13,130 bases of DNA from Pyrinomonadaceae bacterium. Its GTDB lineage: Bacteria > Acidobacteriota > Blastocatellia > Pyrinomonadales > Pyrinomonadaceae. Within the stretch, counting starts at the first letter, position 1. Every line of letters starts with the position of its first letter. Below, piece after piece: positions 1,984 to 9,598 of this stretch. The notes under the pieces are model-generated. The model searched no databases. It worked only from the letters and a program-made list of their open reading frames with translations, and was not told the origin of the DNA. The stretch covers positions 1-13,130 of the forward strand of contig JACCTF010000749.1 of the NCBI GenBank assembly GCA_013812565.1. The letters run 5' to 3'. A program made the translations under genes and the position numbers.

Positions 1984-2082
1984 ACAAGAGTACGGAGCGC
2001 GAGATACGGAGTGCGAAGTTCAATTAAATCAAAGTCGCGCCCTGCAACTCCGTATCTCGCACCTCGAACTCCGTACTCTTGT
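1984..2082. repeat. Heptamer-built hairpin element A (TACGGAG words)
   Basis: Two stacked perfect stems are visible: 1984-1997 with 2069-2082 (14 bp) and 1999-2012 with 2047-2060 (14 bp), around a 34-nt loop. The left arm is a run of 7-bp words: GTACGGA at 1990, GCGCGAG at 1997, ATACGGA at 2004, GTGCGAA at 2011. Read on the minus strand, the right arm has the same kind of words plus one additional heptamer (GTTCGAG). This creates an internal loop of 1 nt against 8 nt, a difference of exactly 7. No T-tract follows. It lies in the divergent spacer between the 1322-1843 gene and lipB. Confidence 0.8.
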
Positions 2083-2122
2083 GTTGCTACAATGACCCGC
2101 AAACTTTCCGTAGTTTTGAACC

Positions 2123-2836
2123 ATGCAAACAAAGATGCAACAGCGAACGCTCACGGTGCGCCGCCTCGGAAATCTTGAATATGGCTTGGCGCTTCAAGTG
2201 CAAAAGCAGACCGAAGCAGCAGTCCGCGACCGTATGCAACCGGACACGCTGCTCCTCGTCGAGCACCCCGACGTGATTACGCTCGGACGACGTGCATCCG
2301 ACAATGCCCTTCTCGCTTCGCCCGAAGTATTAGCGGCGCGCAGCATCGCCCTCTTTGAAACGAATCGCGGCGGGAAAGCGACCTATCATGGGTTCGGCCA
2401 GATCGTCGGCTATCCCGTTATTAACTTGAGTCCTGATCGCGAAGATGTTCATGTTTACGTGCGCGATTTAGAGGAAGCACTCATCCGCGCGCTCGCAGAC
2501 TTTGGTATCGAGAGCTTTCCGATCAAAGGCTTGACCGGCGTTCACACCAGGCAGGGCAAACTCGCTGCCATCGGCGTACACATTGCGCGCTGGACCACCA
2601 CGCACGGCTTCGCTTTGAACGTCAATACCGATCTGAGCTTCTTCAATCTGATCACCCCGTGCGAAGGCGAAGCTGTGACTTCGATGAAAGAAGTCCTGGG
2701 TCGAACACTTCCGTTGCACGATGTTGAAGACCGTATCATCACGCGCTTCGCCGAAGTCTTCTATATGGAACTGGAAGACGCGGATCACCAGCCTTTATTT
2801 GAAACACAACTGAGTCGAACAATTGCACCAGTTTGA
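2123..2836 (+). CDS. lipB: LipB, octanoyl-[acyl carrier protein]:protein N-octanoyltransferase
   Basis: LipB moves the octanoyl group from acyl carrier protein onto the lipoyl domains of cytoplasmic complexes such as pyruvate dehydrogenase, the first step of lipoate assembly. The family signature is clear: RGGKATYHGFGQ (82-93), where many members have Asp and Pro at the Lys85 and Phe91 positions. The catalytic pair is present as Lys146 in GKLAAIGVH and Cys180 in LITPCEG. The length of 237 residues is normal. The ATG at 2123 is used; an ATG at 2135 (residue 5) is an equal alternative, since neither has a strong ribosome site. The stop lies 20 bp before the next gene, suggesting one transcript with the PLP enzyme and probably lipA. 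Confidence 0.95.
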   Translation: MQTKMQQRTLTVRRLGNLEYGLALQVQKQTEAAVRDRMQPDTLLLVEHPDVITLGRRASDNALLASPEVLAARSIALFETNRGGKATYHGFGQIVGYPVINLSPDREDVHVYVRDLEEALIRALADFGIESFPIKGLTGVHTRQGKLAAIGVHIARWTTTHGFALNVNTDLSFFNLITPCEGEAVTSMKEVLGRTLPLHDVEDRIITRFAEVFYMELEDADHQPLFETQLSRTIAPV

Positions 2837-2856
2837 ACTTGATATACCAGAAGCCA

Positions 2857-3843
2857 ATGTTAACTCCTGAACTGATTCGCGAAGCGCATGCGCGCATTGA
2901 ATCCTTTGTGCATCGCACTCCGCTCATTCAATCCGGCTCGTTTAACGAGGCAGCCGGAAGACACGTCTTTTTCAAATGCGAGAATTTGCAACGCGCCGGG
3001 GCGTTCAAGATTCGTGGCGCAATGAACAAGCTTCTTTCGTTAACAAATGAGGAACGTCGCCGCGGAGTTGCTGCTTTTTCTTCCGGCAATCACGCGCAAG
3101 CCGTCGCGCTCGCGGCGCGCGAGACGGGGACGCGTGCGGTGATCGCGATGCCGAGCGATGCGCCGCGCATGAAGATCGCCGCGACGCGCGGCTATGGAGC
3201 GGAAGTCGTTTTCTATGACCGTCAACGCGACGACCGTGAAGCATTTGCACGTGGCATCGCCGAGCGCGAGAGCCTTGTGCTTGTGCCGCCTTATGACGAC
3301 TACCTCGTGATGGCTGGACAGGGAACCTGCGCGCTCGAACTTTTGGAGGATGTTCCCCATCTCGACGCTCTCGTCATGCCATGCGGCGGTGGCGGATTAT
3401 TTGCCGGTGCGAGCACTGCGGCGAAGGCTGTCAACGCGAAAGTTCGTTGCTTCCCGGTCGAAGCTGAGACGGCAAACGATACCGAGCAATCGTTTCGTCG
3501 AGGCGAGCGTGTTTGTATTCCGCCGCCGCCGACAATCGCCGATGGGATGCGCAACCAAGCGCCGGGCGCGCTCACCTTTCCTATTCTTCAAAGAAATGCC
3601 GAGGATGTTCTGACCGTCTCAGACGATCTGATCGTGGAGGCACTACGCTTTCTGCTTTTTCGTTGCAAGCTTCTTGTCGAACCGACGGGCGCGGTCGGAG
3701 CAGCGGCAGCCCTCTTCGGTAAACTTCCCCGAAACATCCAGCGCGTCGGCGTCATCATCTCAGGCGGCAATGTTGACCCGGAAACGCTCGCTCGCCTACT
3801 ACCCGCGACGAGCGACGATCACGCTTCCTCAATGTTAAAATAA
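2857..3843 (+). CDS. Serine racemase / threonine dehydratase-like PLP enzyme (fold type II)
   Basis: The protein has 328 residues from the ATG at 2857; a TTG at 2833 that overlaps lipB would add eight residues and is less likely. Lys51 in GAFKIRGA is the expected Schiff-base lysine. SSGNHA (75-80) is the substrate loop, GGGG (177-180) binds the cofactor phosphate, and SGGN (302-305) closes the cofactor site. The stretches MPSDAPRMK and VEAETANDTEQS resemble serine racemase and L-threo-3-hydroxyaspartate dehydratase, including the divalent-metal region. There is no C-terminal ACT domain, so it is not the allosteric biosynthetic IlvA. Likely reactions are deamination of Ser/Thr-like substrates, Ser racemisation, or both; sequence alone cannot decide. 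It sits between lipB and lipA, probably co-transcribed. Confidence 0.88.
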   Translation: MLTPELIREAHARIESFVHRTPLIQSGSFNEAAGRHVFFKCENLQRAGAFKIRGAMNKLLSLTNEERRRGVAAFSSGNHAQAVALAARETGTRAVIAMPSDAPRMKIAATRGYGAEVVFYDRQRDDREAFARGIAERESLVLVPPYDDYLVMAGQGTCALELLEDVPHLDALVMPCGGGGLFAGASTAAKAVNAKVRCFPVEAETANDTEQSFRRGERVCIPPPPTIADGMRNQAPGALTFPILQRNAEDVLTVSDDLIVEALRFLLFRCKLLVEPTGAVGAAAALFGKLPRNIQRVGVIISGGNVDPETLARLLPATSDDHASSMLK

Positions 3844-3878
3844 CGCTGCCTTTAAGTTTGGTGTAAAGAGGTAATTAA

Positions 3879-4814
3879 GTGAGTCGTGAACTTCGAGTAA
3901 TAAGCAACGCTAAGCCACGTGAGCGCCAGCCGAAGCCTGATTGGTTAAAGATCAAATTGGGCGATCCAACAAATCAAAATCATGTTCTGAAACTAATCGA
4001 AGGATTGAACCTTCACACGGTCTGTCAGGAAGCCGGATGCCCGAACATCTTTGAATGTTGGTCGGATAGGACGGCGACATTTATGCTGAGCGGCGATACA
4101 TGCACGCGCCACTGCGGCTTTTGCGCGGTGAACAAAGGTAAGCCCAGCGAGCTTGACCCGGAAGAGCCGCGGCATGTCGCCGAAGCCGTACGTCATCTCA
4201 ATCTGGCGCATGCCGTCATCACATCAGTCAACCGCGACGATTTGGACGACGGCGGCGCGGCACACTGGGCCGAGACCATCCGCGAAGTGCGCCGGATGAA
4301 CCCACAGTGCAAAGTTGAAGTTTTAATTCCCGACTTTAACGGCGACGAAGCGGCACTCAACACCGTGCTCGATGCTGAGCCTGACGTGCTCAACCACAAC
4401 ACTGAAACCATCGCACGCCTCTACAGACGTGTCCGCCCCGATGCCAAATATCAACAGACGATGACGTTGCTCGAACGCGCCGCCGCGCGTCGCGACCGGG
4501 AACGACGCGGCATGTTGACCAAGAGCGGCATCATGGTGGGCCTCGGCGAAACGTTTGATGAAGTTGTTGAGTTGATGAAAGATTTGCGCGCAGTCTCCTG
4601 CGACATTATGACCATCGGGCAGTATCTACAGCCGCATGCGCGTCGTCTGCCCGTTGAGCGGTATGTCACGCCGGAGGAGTTTGCTCGTTGGCGCGAAGTC
4701 GGCCTCAACTTGAGGTTCCGCCATGTTGAGTCAAGCCCGCTCACGCGCTCCTCATATCATGCGCGTCAGCAGACGGAAAGCTCCGTCAGTGAACCTGTCG
4801 AAGCAGCGTCTTGA
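3879..4814 (+). CDS. lipA: LipA, lipoyl synthase (radical SAM)
   Basis: LipA inserts two sulfur atoms into protein-bound octanoyl chains to form lipoyl groups, using S-adenosylmethionine and two [4Fe-4S] clusters. The auxiliary-cluster cysteines are C49, C54 and C60 in CQEAGCPNIFEC. The radical SAM cysteines are C75, C79 and C82 in CTRHCGFC. The C-terminal RSSYHA (290-295) supplies the serine ligand of the auxiliary cluster. The length of 311 residues is typical. The start is GTG at 3879, supported by AAAGAGGT at 3865-3872 with a 6-nt spacer. It stands 35 bp after the PLP enzyme and two genes after lipB, the partner enzyme, so the group probably works as a lipoylation operon. Confidence 0.96.
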   Translation: MSRELRVISNAKPRERQPKPDWLKIKLGDPTNQNHVLKLIEGLNLHTVCQEAGCPNIFECWSDRTATFMLSGDTCTRHCGFCAVNKGKPSELDPEEPRHVAEAVRHLNLAHAVITSVNRDDLDDGGAAHWAETIREVRRMNPQCKVEVLIPDFNGDEAALNTVLDAEPDVLNHNTETIARLYRRVRPDAKYQQTMTLLERAAARRDRERRGMLTKSGIMVGLGETFDEVVELMKDLRAVSCDIMTIGQYLQPHARRLPVERYVTPEEFARWREVGLNLRFRHVESSPLTRSSYHARQQTESSVSEPVEAAS

Positions 4815-4870
4815 AGGCAGGGAGCGACTATTGATCGCCGGCAATTGCCGGATGCCTCACCTGCTGCCTT
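4814..4870. terminator. Nested inverted repeats between convergent genes
   Basis: Between the lipA stop and the stop of the reductase gene, AAGGCAG (4814-4820) pairs with CTGCCTT (4864-4870). Inside them lies a perfect 14-bp palindrome CCGGCAATTGCCGG (4838-4851). The position between convergent genes suits transcription termination for both, but there is no T-tract on either side, so an intrinsic terminator is only possible. Confidence 0.35.
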
Positions 4871-4884
4871 AATCTAACCGGGCG

Positions 4885-5640
4885 TCAGTAGTTGGTTAAA
4901 ATCGCGTCCGGCTTGAAACCCATCACCTGCAAACGACTGCGTGTTTGTTCAATCATTTCCAGCGAGCCACAGACAAGCGCAACCGGTGCGGACAGCTCCG
5001 GCAAGATGTGATCCAGCAGAGATTGGACGTAGCCGGTCGGCCCGGACCAGTCGTGCCCGTCGGGGCGCGAAACGACTTGACGCAATTCGACGCCCGCTGC
5101 TTGCCAACCCTCGGTCTCATCCAGGTAGCAGAAGTCTGCGGGTGTGCGCACTCCGTAGAGAACAACAATCTGACCGAAATCACGGGCACGTCGCAGCACA
5201 TGACGCAAGGCCGAGCGCAGCGGCGCAATCCCTGTACCCATTGCGATAAAGACCAGGTCCTTGCCTCTGTGCTCGTCGAGCGTAAACCCACGTCCCACGA
5301 TCTCCGCCATCGTTAACGCTTGGCCGGATTGCATATCAAAGATCGCCTGGGCTGCGCCGTTCGTGCGCTTAATCAAAAACTCAAGCTCCTCATCCTCCGG
5401 CGCACTGGCAAAAGCGAAGTAGGCTGATCCTCCATCGTTTGTCTGCAACACAGCCACTTGGCCCGGCGCGAAACTCAGGCCGTGCGCACCCGTCGCGCCT
5501 TCGGGCAGCATGCGAAACGAGCGCGTATCGCGCCCTTGTTCGCTTCTATGTGTGATGATTAACGAACGCGTCTTCCCGTTTCCCATAAACAACACCGATA
5601 TTTGAAATTTGTGTGACGAGTTTAACGTGCCCCGTACCAT
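4885..5640 (-). CDS. FAD/NAD(P)-dependent ferredoxin reductase-like oxidoreductase
   Basis: This is a 251-residue member of the ferredoxin-NADP reductase fold. The N-terminal FAD barrel (about 25-115) has FAPGQ (57-61) and AYFAFASAP (73-81), in place of the usual RxYS flavin motif. The NAD(P) half (about 127-250) has MGTGIAPLRS (134-143), LYGVRTPADFCY (161-172) and CGSLEM (224-229). It resembles the reductase subunits of hydrogenases and sulfide dehydrogenases, but no C-terminal Cys cluster for a [2Fe-2S] centre is present, and no electron-transfer partner gene is adjacent. The ATG at 5640 is chosen, with AGGA about 4 nt upstream; a TTG at 5652 and an ATG at 5586 are alternatives. The electron acceptor is unknown. 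It converges with lipA and diverges from the DoxX gene. Confidence 0.82.
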   Translation of the reverse strand: MVRGTLNSSHKFQISVLFMGNGKTRSLIITHRSEQGRDTRSFRMLPEGATGAHGLSFAPGQVAVLQTNDGGSAYFAFASAPEDEELEFLIKRTNGAAQAIFDMQSGQALTMAEIVGRGFTLDEHRGKDLVFIAMGTGIAPLRSALRHVLRRARDFGQIVVLYGVRTPADFCYLDETEGWQAAGVELRQVVSRPDGHDWSGPTGYVQSLLDHILPELSAPVALVCGSLEMIEQTRSRLQVMGFKPDAILTNY

Positions 5641-5734
5641 AGCATCCTGCAAGTGAAAGGCTCAATCGTAGCGCACACAGCAACGCATATGGTAAAACAA
5701 CCCGGTTGCCGCGAGAACAGCATAAGTTGTCAGC

Positions 5735-5800
5735 GTTTAGAGTTCAGCCTGAAAGCTTTCCTTCGGAGCACACTGAGGCGCTCAAACGTGAACTCTAAAT
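5735..5800. repeat. Palindromic intergenic element D (TTTAGAGTTCA ends)
   Basis: TTTAGAGTTCA at 5736-5746 is perfectly inverted as TGAACTCTAAA at 5789-5799. An inner GCCT (5747-5750) can pair with AGGC (5776-5779), leaving a 9-nt asymmetry on the right, and a small palindrome GAAAGCTTTC sits at 5751-5760. The ends can be read as two heptamers (GTTTAGA, GTTCAGC), a weaker form of the pattern seen in elements A, B and C. It lies in the divergent spacer between the reductase and DoxX genes. Confidence 0.5.
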
Positions 5801-5906
5801 ATCAACTTGATAAAGCTTCTTGGTCGCCGCGCTTTTTGCCGCCCAATTGTTTTGGGAATTTTTGTAGCTGTACGAGGGTTGACTGAAGATCGGAGAGAAC
5901 AAATAG

Positions 5907-6347
5907 ATGTTTCGAACATTGATGAAAACGCAGCCGACGTGGATGACTCTGCCGGTACGCCTTGCGCTCGGATGTATCTTTATCGCTCATGGCGCGCAGA
6001 AAGTGTTTGGTGTCTGGGGCGGCAAAGGGTTGTCGGCATTCATTGAGGGGACTGCTCCGTTTGGGTTGCAACCGGCTTGGCTATGGCTGGGTGCGGCAGC
6101 CTTTGCCGAGCTTTTCGGCGGCCTTCTAGTGCTCCTCGGACTGCTTACCAGATTCGGCGCACTAATGATTGTGCCCGTCATGCTTGTCGCAATGTTCGGC
6201 GTACATTGGGGCAGATTCTTCCTGCAGGACAGAGGCATTGAGTACACGCTGGCGCTCTTGGCAATGGCGCTGGCGCTTCTGATCGCGGGCGGCGGCCGCA
6301 TCTCCTTCGACGAAGCCCTGAGCGATACACGCACACGCAGGCGCTAA
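5907..6347 (+). CDS. DoxX-family integral membrane protein
   Basis: This 146-residue protein has four predicted membrane helices (about 13-32, 57-77, 80-100 and 107-130). The first contains the DoxX-type signature RLALGCIFIAHGAQKVFG, followed by a loop with GTAPFG and then AAAFAELFGGLLVLLGLLTR in helix two. DoxX proteins are small inner-membrane proteins linked to redox and quinone metabolism in some bacteria and to oxidant or thiol stress in others; the exact role cannot be told here. The ATG at 5907 has GGAG at 5892-5895 with an 11-nt spacer. The C-terminus is short and Arg-rich (TRTRRR), consistent with a cytoplasmic end. Its stop is 6 bp before hairpin element B. Confidence 0.88.
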   Translation: MFRTLMKTQPTWMTLPVRLALGCIFIAHGAQKVFGVWGGKGLSAFIEGTAPFGLQPAWLWLGAAAFAELFGGLLVLLGLLTRFGALMIVPVMLVAMFGVHWGRFFLQDRGIEYTLALLAMALALLIAGGGRISFDEALSDTRTRRR

Positions 6348-6353
6348 AAAGAA

Positions 6354-6434
6354 GTGATGAGTAATGGGTGATGAGTAATGAGTTAGAACTTGCTCTTACT
6401 CATCACCCATTACTCATCATTCATCACTTTTCTT
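6354..6434. repeat. Heptamer-built hairpin element B (GTGATGA/GTAATGG words)
   Basis: A perfect 24-bp inverted repeat joins 6355-6378 to 6396-6419 around a 17-nt loop. The left arm is a 14-bp tandem duplication: GTGATGAGTAATGG at 6354-6367, then the same at 6368-6381 with the last base A. It therefore reads as GTGATGA and GTAATGR heptamers, ending in GTTAGAA at 6382. On the minus strand the right arm has the same words plus one extra heptamer, ATGATGA. A weak T-rich run (6428-6434) follows, so it may also terminate doxX transcription. The MFS start codon begins immediately after. Confidence 0.85.
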
Positions 6435-7688
6435 ATGAGACGTTCCCCATTACTGGTAATCTTTGTTACCGTCTTCATCAACCTAATCGGCTTTGGCATC
6501 TTCATTCCCTTGCTACCTTTTTATGCGCGAAGTCCGCAATTTAACGCCTCGCCACGCACCATCGGGCTGCTCTTTGCTTCCTATTCAATCATGCAGTTTC
6601 TGTTTTCTCCGTTGCTCGGCAGGTTGTCAGACCGTTATGGCCGACGCCCGCTTTTATTTCTGAGCATGGTCGGGACCGGCATCTCTTTTCTGATTCTCGG
6701 CGCGGCGACGACTGTTTGGATGCTCTTTGCCGGTCGCATTCTCGATGGGATTACGGGAGGCAACATCTCAATCGCGCAGGCGTATGTCGCGGATGTGACG
6801 CGACCCGAAGAACGTGCGAAAGGCATGGGAATCATCGGCGCAGCATTCGGTTTGGGATTCACATTTGGACCTTTGATCGGCGGATTTTTAAGCCGGTGGG
6901 GGATCAGCGTGCCGTTCTTCTTCGCTGCCGGACTGTCTTTCGTTAACGCCGCGCTGATCTATTTTCTGTTGCCTGAAACTATTGGCCCGGAAGCGCGCTT
7001 GAAGCATAGAGAAGCCGTAAGTTGGAAGGAGAGGTATCGACAACTGGCTGAGCCGCGACTCATCTTTGTGCTCTTTATCTACTTCCTCTTTATCGTGGCC
7101 TTCTCGATTATGACAACCGTCTTTGCGCTCTATACGATGTATCGCTTCGGCTATGATGCGCAAGCCAACGGCTACCTGCTCGCCTTTATCGGCGTCATCG
7201 CCATCATCATCCAGGGGGGATTGATCGGGCGGCTAACAAAACTTTTCGGTGAACTGCGCTTAATCATCCTCGGCTTGCTCTTGCTCGCACTCAGTTTGCT
7301 GGCAATGCCGTTCATCGGACCTGTTGTCGGCGGTATACTTGCGCTGCTCGCGGTTCTTGCAGTTATCGCTATCGGTAACTCGTTTGCTACGCCGACGCTG
7401 ACAAGCCTCGCCTCAAAGAGCGTCAGCGTAGAGAACCAGGGTGGAGCGCTTGGATTGACGCAGTCGATGGCAAGCCTCGCGCGGGTCGTTGGCCCACTCA
7501 TCGGAGCGGTATTGATTCATAGCGAGATGGCTCCGCAGAACATGGATGATCGCTCGCTGCTTGTGACGTTTTGGACAGCGGCGGGGATTACCTTTGCGGC
7601 TTTGTTCCTTGCCGTTTATCTGGTGCGCACGCACAAAACAATTGCAACGGATCAGTCGAACGTCGAGATGGCCGCGACCGGCATGTAA
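6435..7688 (+). CDS. MFS transporter, drug:H+ antiporter type (TetA/TCR-like)
   Basis: This 417-residue protein has about 12 predicted membrane helices. Motif A of the major facilitator superfamily, GRLSDRYGRR (62-71), lies between helices 2 and 3. AQAYVADVTRPEERAKGMG follows helix 4, and a motif C-like GAAFGLGFTFGPLIGG (135-150) lies in helix 5, which is typical of proton-coupled exporters. It is similar in plan to class A/B tetracycline exporters, but the substrate cannot be read from sequence and no TetR-type regulator is adjacent. The ATG at 6435 is chosen. A TTG at 6390 would add 15 residues translated from hairpin element B and is an artefact of the repeat. No Shine-Dalgarno sequence precedes the ATG, since the repeat occupies that space. 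Confidence 0.9.
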   Translation: MRRSPLLVIFVTVFINLIGFGIFIPLLPFYARSPQFNASPRTIGLLFASYSIMQFLFSPLLGRLSDRYGRRPLLFLSMVGTGISFLILGAATTVWMLFAGRILDGITGGNISIAQAYVADVTRPEERAKGMGIIGAAFGLGFTFGPLIGGFLSRWGISVPFFFAAGLSFVNAALIYFLLPETIGPEARLKHREAVSWKERYRQLAEPRLIFVLFIYFLFIVAFSIMTTVFALYTMYRFGYDAQANGYLLAFIGVIAIIIQGGLIGRLTKLFGELRLIILGLLLLALSLLAMPFIGPVVGGILALLAVLAVIAIGNSFATPTLTSLASKSVSVENQGGALGLTQSMASLARVVGPLIGAVLIHSEMAPQNMDDRSLLVTFWTAAGITFAALFLAVYLVRTHKTIATDQSNVEMAATGM

Positions 7689-7736
7689 GGTTTACCGTGA
7701 ATCGCCCCTTTCCCATGACACATGACTTTGATCGCG

Positions 7737-7755
7737 CAAGGAGTCTGACTCTTTG
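7737..7755. promoter_or_regulatory. Dyad-symmetric site upstream of the SnoaL-like gene
   Basis: CAAGGAGTCTGACTCTTTG has nine symmetric pairs around a single central base, with one G-T wobble. It lies 83 bp upstream of the ATG at 7838 and 49 bp after the MFS stop. There is no following T-tract. It could be a regulator-binding site, but no regulator gene is nearby. Confidence 0.25.
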
Positions 7756-7837
7756 AAAGCTTCGCATCGGCAACGTGTAGGGGTCGTGAACAGTTTGTGA
7801 AGAGCATTGAGATAATGACTGCCCAGGGGGATTTGAG

Positions 7838-8248
7838 ATGTCTAAAGCAATAACTGATAAATTTATCGAAGCGTTGTGGAAATTGGAAGAGGGTCGCGAT
7901 TTGGAACCGATTGTGGCGATGTATGCGGACGATTGCGAAGTGGGCAACGTCGTCGCGCCTGAAAAGTTTCATGGTCCCGATGGAGCACGCGAGTTCTGGA
8001 CGAAATATCGCGAAACATTTGGTGAAATCAAGTCTACATTTCGCAACGTGATCGCGACCGAAGGGCACGCAGCGCTTGAGTGGACAACTAAAGGTACGTC
8101 AACCGGCGGCTCTCCGATTGAGTATGATGGCGTCAGCGTTCTTGAAATCGAAGGCGATAAACTGATACGCTTTCGCGCTTACTTCCACGCTGCCGAGCTT
8201 GGCCGTCAAGTAACCAATGACACAGCAAGCACGGCTCGCTCCCAGTGA
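7838..8248 (+). CDS. SnoaL/NTF2-like cone-fold protein
   Basis: This 136-residue protein has the SnoaL-like layout: an N-terminal helix (4-17), then DLEPIVAMYADDCEV (20-34), a region near HGPDGAREFW, and beta strands ending in VSVLEIEGDKLIRFRAYF. The fold makes a small cone-shaped pocket and is used by polyketide cyclases, steroid isomerases and many proteins of unknown role. Here no gene for a known partner pathway is adjacent, so the substrate is unknown. The ATG at 7838 is well supported by AGGGGGA about 6 nt upstream. The last 15 residues are polar and probably disordered. It is likely cytoplasmic, with no signal peptide. Confidence 0.85.
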   Translation: MSKAITDKFIEALWKLEEGRDLEPIVAMYADDCEVGNVVAPEKFHGPDGAREFWTKYRETFGEIKSTFRNVIATEGHAALEWTTKGTSTGGSPIEYDGVSVLEIEGDKLIRFRAYFHAAELGRQVTNDTASTARSQ

Positions 8249-8340
8249 AGAAGTTAGAAAGAGAAACTTCAACCTTCTGCCTTAAAACCTCACAACATAT
8301 ATTGGCTTCCTGCTGGAAGATGGAGAGTTTGGCCGCCCGC

Positions 8341-8424
8341 GCTTGCGAACGCTAAAAAGTTCGTCCAAGCGCGAGGCACGGCCGTCTAAAAGTTCAGCAG
8401 TACAAATCGCTAAAACGATTTGTA
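8341..8424 (+). other. Two small hairpins with CTAAAA-containing loops in a 298-bp gene-free spacer
   Basis: The spacer 8249-8546 holds no convincing gene. It contains a stem GCTTGCGAAC (8341-8350) with GTTCG (8359-8363) and CAAGC (8366-8370), with a 2-nt bulge and loop GCTAAAAA. It also contains a perfect 9-bp stem TACAAATCG (8401-8409) with CGATTTGTA (8416-8424), loop CTAAAA. A third CTAAAA lies between them at 8386-8391. This may be part of the 5' leader of the next gene or a small RNA; the function is not known. Confidence 0.35.
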
Positions 8425-8546
8425 AACATTCCTTGGTGCTGGATGTGCGTGCATCAGTGGGGAAGTATGTTTTCGCAAAGCCAGATGCAACACGGAGGGC
8501 GCCAAAGATTAATAAGAAGCTTTAATTTAGTGGAGGAAAACGAATC

Positions 8547-8954
8547 ATGGATCAGTCACTTTTTCGCGGTATGGTGCTCTCCGGGGCGCTACTCGCGACG
8601 TTAACATTCACAGCAACGGCGCAGGAACAGAACACACCAAACCAGGTGGATCCGGGCGAGCGCAAAGAGTTGCGCCAAGATCGAAGGGAGATTCGGAGAG
8701 ACACCAGAGAGACTCGGGCTGACCGGCGCGAGATACATCGGGACAAACAAGACCTCAAAGCTGACCGGCGCGACTACCGTAGAGATCGCCGCGATGGAGC
8801 AACGCAAGCAGAGTTGCGTGCTGATCGACGCGAGATCAAAGCAGACGGACGCGAGTTGCGCGGAGATAGACGTGAGCTTCGGATGGATCGCCGCGACCGC
8901 CGCGCGGGCGTTCGCGACTTTCGGCGGGATCGGCGAAACGCTCGGAGAAGCTAA
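8547..8954 (+). CDS. Secreted Arg/Asp-rich heptad-repeat protein
   Basis: This 135-residue protein has a signal peptide (1-25, ending TATA, cleavage before Q26) and a mature part dominated by the repeat xDRRExR. Asp recurs every seven residues at 45, 52, 59, 66, 73 and 80; after a one-residue register skip near GATQAE (84-89) it recurs at 93, 100, 107, 114 and 128. One aliphatic or aromatic residue per heptad (I49, I63, L70, Y77, I97, L104, L111, F125) fits a lone charged helix stabilised by i to i+4 salt bridges better than a classic coiled coil. It is strongly basic. It may bind anionic polymers or surfaces, but that is inference. The ATG at 8547 has GGAGGA about 9 nt upstream. Terminator 8981-9018 follows. 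Confidence 0.85.
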   Translation: MDQSLFRGMVLSGALLATLTFTATAQEQNTPNQVDPGERKELRQDRREIRRDTRETRADRREIHRDKQDLKADRRDYRRDRRDGATQAELRADRREIKADGRELRGDRRELRMDRRDRRAGVRDFRRDRRNARRS

Positions 8955-8980
8955 CTTCAAAAGTATTACATCTACTGCTT

Positions 8981-9018
8981 ATGAAAAGGGGCGAACCGCG
9001 CGGTTCGCCCCTTTTCAT
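8981..9018. terminator. Perfect 38-bp palindrome, bidirectional intrinsic terminator
   Basis: The 18 bases at 8981-8998 (ATGAAAAGGGGCGAACCG) are exactly inverted at 9001-9018, with a self-complementary CG centre. The stem is GC-rich and flanked by AAAA on one side and TTTT on the other, so transcripts from either strand would end in a hairpin with a U-run. It lies 26 bp after the stop of the Arg/Asp heptad protein. It would also meet any transcript from the minus-strand kinase relic. Confidence 0.85.
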
Positions 9019-9150
9019 TACCTCCGCATGATCTAAAGGGTTGGCGCGGCCTGCCCACAAGCACCGCCACTCAAATTACAGGGGTTCCCTATGAGGGAGC
9101 TTCATTGCAAAGTGGATTATAGACCGAAGCCATGGGGAAGTTGCAGGAGT

Positions 9151-9207
9151 GTCCAAAGTCTAAGGTCTAAAGTCCAAAGTCAATGCAGTATTCCGCTTCG
9201 GACTTTA
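9151..9207. repeat. Heptamer-built hairpin element C (GTCYAAR words)
   Basis: Consecutive 7-bp words fill 9151-9185: GTCCAAA at 9151, GTCTAAG at 9158, GTCTAAA at 9165, GTCCAAA at 9172 and GTCAATG at 9179. TAAAGTCC (9168-9175) pairs with GGACTTTA (9200-9207), with three further pairs inside after one mismatch. The right arm is much shorter than the left, carrying about one heptamer. The right end abuts the last readable codon of the kinase relic. Confidence 0.75.
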
Positions 9208-9598
9208 AATCATCTTGGGCACGCGGGCATCGAGCGTTCCCGGGTCGATCTTCATCTTCACACTCAAACGCCCTTGAAAACAGGGTTTGTTTGAATTCAG
9301 AATACTTTTATAAGAATTCGAGTTCCTGCTTGAGCGGAATCTCCTGCATTCCCACTTTATAAATACTTAGGCGCAGCCTATCCCTCAGATACGAGGTCAG
9401 ATATTTGGCTGTATCCGGGTCTTTGTGAACGAGTTCCGAAATGGCACGCGGGTGTTAAATAGAAAGTGAGGGTGACGCGGCATCTTAAGGGCTTGAAGTT
9501 GCGCTTGCGCGAGTTGGGAATCTAAGTTGCGCGGCTCTCAATTCTCCCTTCAAGTAACGGTCGTAATAATCGACTGCAAGGCGCGTGTGCTTTTGACG
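9208..9598 (-). pseudogene. Relic of a LytS/YehU-type sensor histidine kinase
   Basis: Reading the minus strand with frame changes gives a continuous family match. Frame one (9598-9524) contains DYYDRYLKGELRAAQL. After one extra base (9523), frame two (9522-9451) gives SQLAQAQLQALK and then the phosphoacceptor box HPHFLFNT (9474-9451). One base is missing in the five bases 9450-9446, then 9445-9311 gives AISELVHKDPDTAKY, LRLSIYKVGMQEIPLK and QELEFL, followed by a TAA at 9310-9308. A last shift gives FQGRLSVKMKIDPGTLDARV and PKMI, ending at 9208. These are the dimerisation/His region and the start of the ATP-binding half of PF06580-type kinases. The membrane domain and the nucleotide-binding boxes are absent. 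Identification is strong; activity is not expected. Confidence 0.85.

Follow-up and report, generated by a model that had tools for sequence, protein, structure and literature searches.

The 13,130-nucleotide contig JACCTF010000749.1 of a Pyrinomonadaceae bacterium (GenBank assembly GCA_013812565.1), analyzed here over its full length and called the window, corresponds to contig C522 in a host genome of 5.34 Mb and 1,103 contigs. It contains three hairpins, A, B, and C, whose arms are written in tandem seven-base words, and the genes near them are all ordinary (LipB-like, PALP enzyme, lipoyl synthase, DoxX, MFS transporter, SnoaL-like, and protein kinase). The nearest relatives of the window LipB are found in Acidobacteria gp4 (71% identity, L031) and in a Pyrinomonadaceae genome (65%, L032). 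Each of the three hairpins is, in our view, probably a copy of a short palindromic element, with A, B, and C representing three such families that are dispersed in Pyrinomonadaceae-type Acidobacteriota; an element consists of a short asymmetric core between two inward arms of tandem heptamers, many of which fit GTNNNRR in the taxonomic family of the host.

Heptamer-armed hairpins in the window

Arm 1 of element A (1984–2020, plus strand) reads ACAAGA followed by GTACGGA, GCGCGAG, ATACGGA, GTGCGAA, and GTT, and pairs with arm 2 (2046–2082, minus strand), which reads ACAAGA, GTACGGA, GTTCGAG, GTGCGAG, ATACGGA, and GTT on its own strand. The family A core between them, GTTCAATTAAATCAAAGTCGCGCCCTGCAAC (2018–2048, plus strand), overlaps both arm ends and by eye is like the cores at L157 1497 and L149 4334. 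Downstream lies the lipoate-protein ligase (LipB-like) gene (2123–2836, plus strand). Element B comprises arm 1 (6354–6388, plus strand; GTGATGA, GTAATGG, GTGATGA, GTAATGA, GTTAGAA), arm 2 (6393–6427, minus strand; GTGATGA, ATGATGA, GTAATGG, GTGATGA, GTAAGAG), and the core GTTAGAACTTGCTCTTAC (6382–6399, plus strand), which overlaps the inner words and, in a case clear by eye, resembles the D-family core GATAAAAACTTGTTCTTAC of L154 5237. The element sits between two plus-strand genes: the stop codon of the DoxX-family gene (5907–6347) is 6 nt ahead of it, and the MFS transporter gene (6435–7688) starts 7 nt past its last word. In element C, all four words of arm 1 (9151–9178, plus strand; GTCCAAA, GTCTAAG, GTCTAAA, GTCCAAA, family C) fit GTNNNRR, and the core with the decayed right arm follows at 9179–9212 (plus strand), where the reverse complement includes TTTAAA GTCCGAA, that is, about one word and a remnant.

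When folded against shuffled sequences, A (1984–2082) and B (6347–6434) gave z-scores of −8.1 and −10.1 as RNA, with stems of 37 and 30 pairs, and no shuffle equalled either; as DNA the scores were −7.7 and −9.8. The heptamer hairpins that the first-pass annotation had described are therefore real for A and B, well beyond shuffles, and the four left-arm words of C fit, but the right arm of C is decayed, with a z-score of −2.05 at 9151–9207 (−4.1 at 9151–9212). A weak fourth hairpin (5735–5800, plus strand), proposed as a further member, has 12-bp arms and one fitting word; its second word fails the terminal RR, its z-score of −2.5 is marginal, and its membership is doubtful. In both A and B, arm 2 is longer than arm 1 by exactly one heptamer, a difference that had been claimed: among gaps of 0–14 tried in aligning the arms, a gap of 7 gave the best match fraction (28/30 in A and 25/28 in B).

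An Rfam scan of the window returned no family above its gathering score. Two further features lie in the window. A perfect, loopless 19-bp inverted repeat (ATGAAAAGGGGCGAACCGC and its complement) occupies 8981–9018, 3′ of a gene ending at 8954; it is not a heptamer element and might serve as a bidirectional terminator. Positions 8547–8954 encode a small Arg/Asp-rich protein with repeated DRRE-like units, coded by imperfect direct repeats.

Period, words, and form of the elements

Across the host genome, four consecutive GTNNNRR words were matched 90 + 88 times, compared with 20 + 26 for the reversed pattern, a control that GTGATGA words also satisfy. A sample of 182,006 bases in which hit contigs were abundant had 30 period-7 segments, with 21 at lag 14 and 0–2 at each of the other lags from 4 to 13. 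Runs of at least three words numbered 60 in 297,053 bases (50 pieces, 25 of them selected for containing hits), where 20 first-order Markov sequences averaged 0.95, and 8 against 0.1 expected in 20 contigs (92,723 bases) picked blind to hits, so a genome-wide count no higher than that of shuffled sequence was not what we observed. The same anchors at periods 5, 6, 8, and 9 gave 1, 2, 1, and 1 runs in the blind contigs. In a sample of 425,399 bases (61 pieces: the window, 36 hit-chosen contigs, and 24 chosen regardless of hits) there were 81 such runs. Runs of at least four words in the 50-piece sample, which is enriched for GTNNNRR, numbered 47 for that pattern and 20 for the next of 32 patterns.

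GTNNNRR is a real tendency of the host's taxonomic family. When period-7 arrays were collected without regard to their words and compared with a column-permuted null, GTNNNRR fitted 5 of 11 arrays in the blind host contigs (null 1.8), 48 of 65 in the other host pieces (null 12.3), 23 of 64 in G033 (null 7.1), and 13 of 45 in G009 (null 5.2), the last two being genomes assigned to the same taxonomic family as the host. Matches to four consecutive words are present in 50 of 60 relatives and in 34 of the 36 of that family, among which G015, G030, G009, and G020 have high array counts. The single grammar that had been proposed across elements of different words holds for the host and other genera of its family, but not class-wide: G054 (3/9, null 2.2), G038 (10/36, null 9.4), and G042 (7/36, null 9.3) did not rise above the null, which rules out a class-wide rule. 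In G044, from another family, period-7 runs at two polymerase sites use words without the RR ending. G038 and G042 (f3; samples L200–L214) contain many period-7 arrays of other words, such as TGAGGAC, AATTGAG, and AGTCAGT, several with an inverted partner nearby.

The arrays are organized as inward-facing pairs. All 18 pairs of runs of at least three words within 150 bp face inward; for runs of at least two words, 60 pairs face inward, 9 outward, and 21 in the same direction. The 47 listed pairs, a few of which have an arm in common, span 44–192 bp. The chief host word families are GTGAYRA (D, which holds element B), GTYYAAR (C, which holds element C), and GTNCGRR (A, which holds element A by its words), and each element tends to use one of them: in 38 of the 47 pairs both arms fall within one family, the rest combining a classed with an unclassed arm or two classes, and the arms of an element scored 179.5 for belonging to one family, where 500 arm swaps reached 114.5 at most. 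Across the same pairs there is no support for word order being strictly mirrored from arm to arm, since 68 of 500 word shuffles scored as well or better; this test has low power because the words within one family are so alike.

The cores connect elements at unrelated loci. Within-family asymmetric cores of host elements exceed shuffles, and loop segments within a family beat flanks in the number of pairs scoring at least 10: 20/153 vs 3 for D, 6/120 vs 0 for C, and 10/66 vs 1 for A, where one L231 element is counted as two overlapping readings. The cores at L193 4119 and L231 5474 are a clear case by eye, and the odd word GTRAACA was seen one or two words outward of the core in six D elements (L159 927, L187, L193, L215, L222, and L234). 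A model of core and arm, R1, built from 10 D-family elements including B, matched in 35 of 40 relatives (both strands, at most 121 candidates scored per genome), with its lowest E-values, 4.7e-23 and 2.7e-22, in G018 and G015, both of other genera. R1 had no match in G021 and G022, the two array-free genomes of the 36 of the host's taxonomic family.

Five D elements (L151 8384, L222 15913, L224 2123, L226 3448, and L228 1287) carry the D arms and core ends around 77–136 nt of apparently unrelated interior, as though the core had taken up cargo or two half-elements had joined. Another dispersed palindrome, GCAAACTAACAGTTTGC flanked by GTAAAGC/GCTTTAC, recurs in L304 and L306 (G009) and in L286 and L297 (G033).

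Between congeneric genomes, the arrays change length in steps of seven. In a census of gaps up to 42 with flanking identity of at least 80%, multiples of 7 made up 12 of 17 array indels in orthologous arrays of G054 and G050 (2 of 65 elsewhere) and 8 of 16 in G033 and G009 (3 of 49 elsewhere), or 20 of 33 pooled against 5 of 114 outside arrays, the enrichment that the first-pass annotation had predicted. Within one element, the arms of the L235/L236 pair changed independently, by 14 bp and 7 bp. These steps, the independent arm changes, and the words common to both arms of an element are what would be expected if the elements grew in place, with slippage making the heptamer runs, template switching at quasi-palindromes copying the other arm, and nothing moving; that explanation is nevertheless quite unlikely in our estimation, as it accounts poorly for asymmetric cores common to unrelated loci, for a single family's model matching many genera, for in-frame copies in conserved genes, and for word order without clear mirroring. 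Of the mechanism first suggested, in which arms grow or are copied in 7-bp steps, the steps stand, but the shared cores and the reach of R1 leave unsupported the idea that the families arose through growth in place. Relative to G033, large insertions are present in G009 at L304 3888–6184 and at L310 4695–5457, 8950–9526, and 11460–12482; at least one of these, that at L310 4695, falls where a heptamer element stands in G033.

Elements behind stop codons and in reading frames

Genes were called with a purpose-made dicodon caller (host coding fraction 0.78). Host elements between codirectional genes lie predominantly near the upstream stop codon, 28 of 36 being no more than 15 nt from it; 16 of 36 lie that close to the start. 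Where the slack was at least 30 nt, 11 of 18 were at the stop against 2.56 expected, a count that none of 100,000 simulations reached, and 2 of 18 were at the start. At L148 6762–6829 an element fills the gap between TA|G and ATG. D-family words such as GTGACAA hold TGA within their reading cycle, and some genes terminate inside a D-type array (L159 and L219, both ending VTSDE). The D-family element at L215 3108–3219 lies right behind the apparent 3′ end of a tRNA gene.

This strong bias to the first 15 nt past stop codons, with the great stability of A and B as RNA, would suit hairpins selected at gene 3′ ends for termination, 3′ protection, or operon attenuation, their words drifting while the stem still forms. 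A terminator scan of the window (loops of 3–8 only) found no T-tailed match on the stems of A, B, or C, which were accordingly rejected as intrinsic terminators within that scan; its one small stem, on the minus strand, lies within the loop of A. Intragenic copies (11 of 29 elements in G033 and 5 of 63 in the host, the latter counted when >60% within called genes) and the lack of elements in G021 and G022 also fit this explanation poorly, and we judge it improbable.

The hairpins had been taken to be intergenic, which is not so for all copies: some lie in frame inside genes, and under a stricter rule (45 nt from either gene end) 3 of 81 host arrays are intragenic. Since 7 equals 1 modulo 3, a regular heptamer array gives one seven-residue cycle in all frames. 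The commonest word was free of stops in 20 of 23 arrays well inside genes and in 63 of 111 outside (Fisher p 0.008), several of the arrays coming from one polymerase gene and so not all being independent. In-frame palindromic inserts were found in the unrelated genes for a polymerase, PurL, MetG, and an Lhr-like helicase. In 5fku, the best PDB chain, the residues on either side of the first insert in the error-prone polymerase of G033 and G009 are about 10 apart. The host Lhr-like helicase has an insert that we place between motifs I and Ia, and P0121 has the same insert; 78 of the 120 listed relatives could be delimited in this region, and 65 of these have 17–25 residues there. The PurL and MetG inserts of G033, the latter in a region only partly heptameric, were rejected as specific to that genome: G009 has related inserts at both places, so these are not empty/occupied pairs.

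The polymerase gene allowed the occupants of single sites to be compared. Among the best 120 of 7,999 relatives, largely metagenome proteins in which misassembly is possible, sites 1, 2, and 3 were delimited in 114, 19, and 98 proteins, respectively. The insert peptides repeat every seven residues, with lag-7 identities of 0.114 (diluted, as many stretches at site 1 ran too long), 0.226, and 0.19, against mostly 0.04–0.09 and one 0.127 at other lags. Peptide word families include VQSPKSK (GTCCAAA), VSSLKSQ (GTCTCAA), VSG..CQVPG (GTGTCAG), and GVGG (GTGTGGG), the DNA words being back-translations except in G033, G009, G002, and G044, where the DNA was inspected. Wherever both arms could be classed, they belonged to the same family in 74 of 74, 13 of 13, and 84 of 87 cases at sites 1, 2, and 3 (171 of 174 in all); eight of the 84 are a non-heptamer palindrome, and in each of the three exceptions GVGG is combined with VSG. 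A class could be given to one arm alone in 28, 6, and 6 cases and to neither in 12, 0, and 5.

Different word families occupy the same site. On a FastTree phylogeny of the remaining 1,035 columns, with occupants labeled by regular expressions and with neither a shuffled control nor branch support used, parsimony requires at least 23, 6, and 32 occupant changes at sites 1, 2, and 3, the empty state and the non-heptamer palindrome included. Core identity is 98.6% between P0013 and P0042, whose occupants are nonetheless different at sites 1 and 3, and 98.5% between P0098 and P0115, which differ at site 1. At site 2, G033 and G009 have GTGTCRG and GTCCAAA words, respectively, and at site 1 G029 has no heptamer insert. 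Both arms might be rewritable in place, one GTNNNRR word being swapped for another with frame and palindrome kept, an idea that we hold as tentative and unlikely; the route could be wholesale replacement of an occupant by a different copy, the site being a privileged place to land, or a machine that writes heptamer palindromes.

The non-heptameric palindrome, of the GGCATTCCTGCCTGC type (peptide TGIPAC..RQECL), is in frame at site 3 in 9 of 98 proteins (P0014, P0114, and others) and also occurs in G009 at L304 ~20539.

Relation to known elements and possible spread

The elements are short, with inward arms as terminal inverted repeats and too little length for a transposase gene, as in miniature inverted-repeat transposable elements; they are dispersed short palindromes in many copies, as are repetitive extragenic palindromes (REPs), and their tandem period-7 arrays exceed chance, as in long simple sequence repeats (LSSRs) and short tandemly repeated repetitive sequences. 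In cyanobacterial tRNA-Leu introns the stem arms are heptamers and their complements, at a single intron locus in contrast to the dispersed family here. In Nostoc, of a different phylum, the small dispersed repeats studied by Elhai in 2008 are reportedly very small mobile elements within heptamer arrays.

The nearest known kinds are REPs and Rickettsia palindromic elements (RPEs), for their intragenic copies and stop-codon contact, and heptameric simple repeats. REPs of the GTAG and CGTC superfamilies (PMC3733652) are likewise short dispersed palindromes, intergenic and intragenic, that touch flanking genes; the termini of GTAG REPs often provide a TAG stop, and copies lie inside DNA synthesis and repair genes (PMC3733652). 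RPEs, of about 150 bp and each coding a conserved peptide (PMC10969869), also form several palindromic families in frame in unrelated metabolic genes, a likeness drawn from their description; here, in contrast, the words determine the peptide, a seven-residue cycle, and one site can hold different families. Heptameric simple repeats such as GGGNATC (PMC4692102), TAACTGA (PMC4679880), and the LSSRs of Mrazek 2007 as cited there are period-7 arrays, mostly intergenic and many per genome, but are described as direct (169 direct sets and one indirect for TAACTGA; PMC4679880), whereas here inward inverted pairs around a core occur commonly. PARCELs (PMC2996958) and the coding palindromes of Nematomorpha (PMC6649704) are translated palindromic DNA too, but they respectively form 25-residue tandem protein repeats and encode conserved protein regions. 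A literature search of titles and abstract openings, with subscription papers mostly outside its reach, found nothing on heptamer-armed palindromes in Acidobacteriota and no report joining REPs or RPEs with heptameric simple repeats.

The elements could be ordinary GTAG-type REPs moved by REP-associated tyrosine (RAYT, Y1) transposases, with the heptamers an incidental decoration. For REPs, the literature likewise describes dispersed palindromes, copies inside genes, and contact with stop codons (PMC3733652), and Y1 genes are present in 49 of 60 relatives. The arms here, however, are tandem heptamer arrays that change in 7-bp steps and form 30–37 pairs in A and B, beyond the 5–13 bp of published GTAG stems (PMC3733652; the tag itself was not searched for), and Y1 counts do not follow array counts in the 36 genomes of the host's taxonomic family (Spearman 0.10, p 0.58), G010 and G034 having many arrays and no Y1 genes. 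RAYT mobilization was rejected on these counts, and the REP explanation as a whole appears very unlikely.

The elements are best read as REP- or RPE-like, with heptamer arms. Besides the Y1 results, several observations weigh against their being mobile families with a shared grammar. No mobilizer was found in a transposase search that took in Y1_Tnp only, and four G033/G009 regions yielded neither a clean empty site nor a target-site duplication, their intergenic differences being too complex. Core conservation is moderate, with the majority of core pairs within background, and several D elements have 77–136 nt interiors apparently unrelated save at the ends. The stop bias is weaker in G033 (7/11; 4/8 with slack) and G009 (1/3; 1/3 with slack), and the best PDB match to PurL has a natural linker about as long at the position of the insert, which may thus be a replacement instead of an addition. 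As for the grammar, the period is clearer than the letters in the blind contigs, because other period-7 anchors give equal numbers of runs (AC...YY 9, CA...RR 9, TG...RR 8, AG...RR 8); the reversed-pattern control was often equally high across the 60 relatives, and the majority of word-blind arrays fail GTNNNRR in G033 (41/64) and G009 (32/45).

On the REP- or RPE-like reading, copies would have spread as non-autonomous mobile DNA through the action of an enzyme, and each arm would then gain or lose 7 bp by slippage. Copies would persist where they cause little damage, either past a stop codon or in frame within a protein loop; in a loop, a heptamer array without stops would yield one identical seven-residue cycle whichever frame is read. 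The strong RNA hairpins of the elements may influence the 3′ ends of mRNAs.

An excess of heptamers in bacteria was noted before, with little detailed work (PMC4692102), and is now tied to palindromic, dispersed elements in defined families at gene junctions and in protein-coding sequence. For annotation, proteins of these bacteria contain seven-residue repeats, VQSPKSK/FGLWTLD among them, that result from the translation of such hairpins, and the stop codon of some genes falls inside an element. At the polymerase sites, near-identical genes form a natural series for tracing occupant, frame, and words, so that mobility, slippage, and in-place rewriting become testable; were in-place rewriting true, this gene would serve as its natural record.

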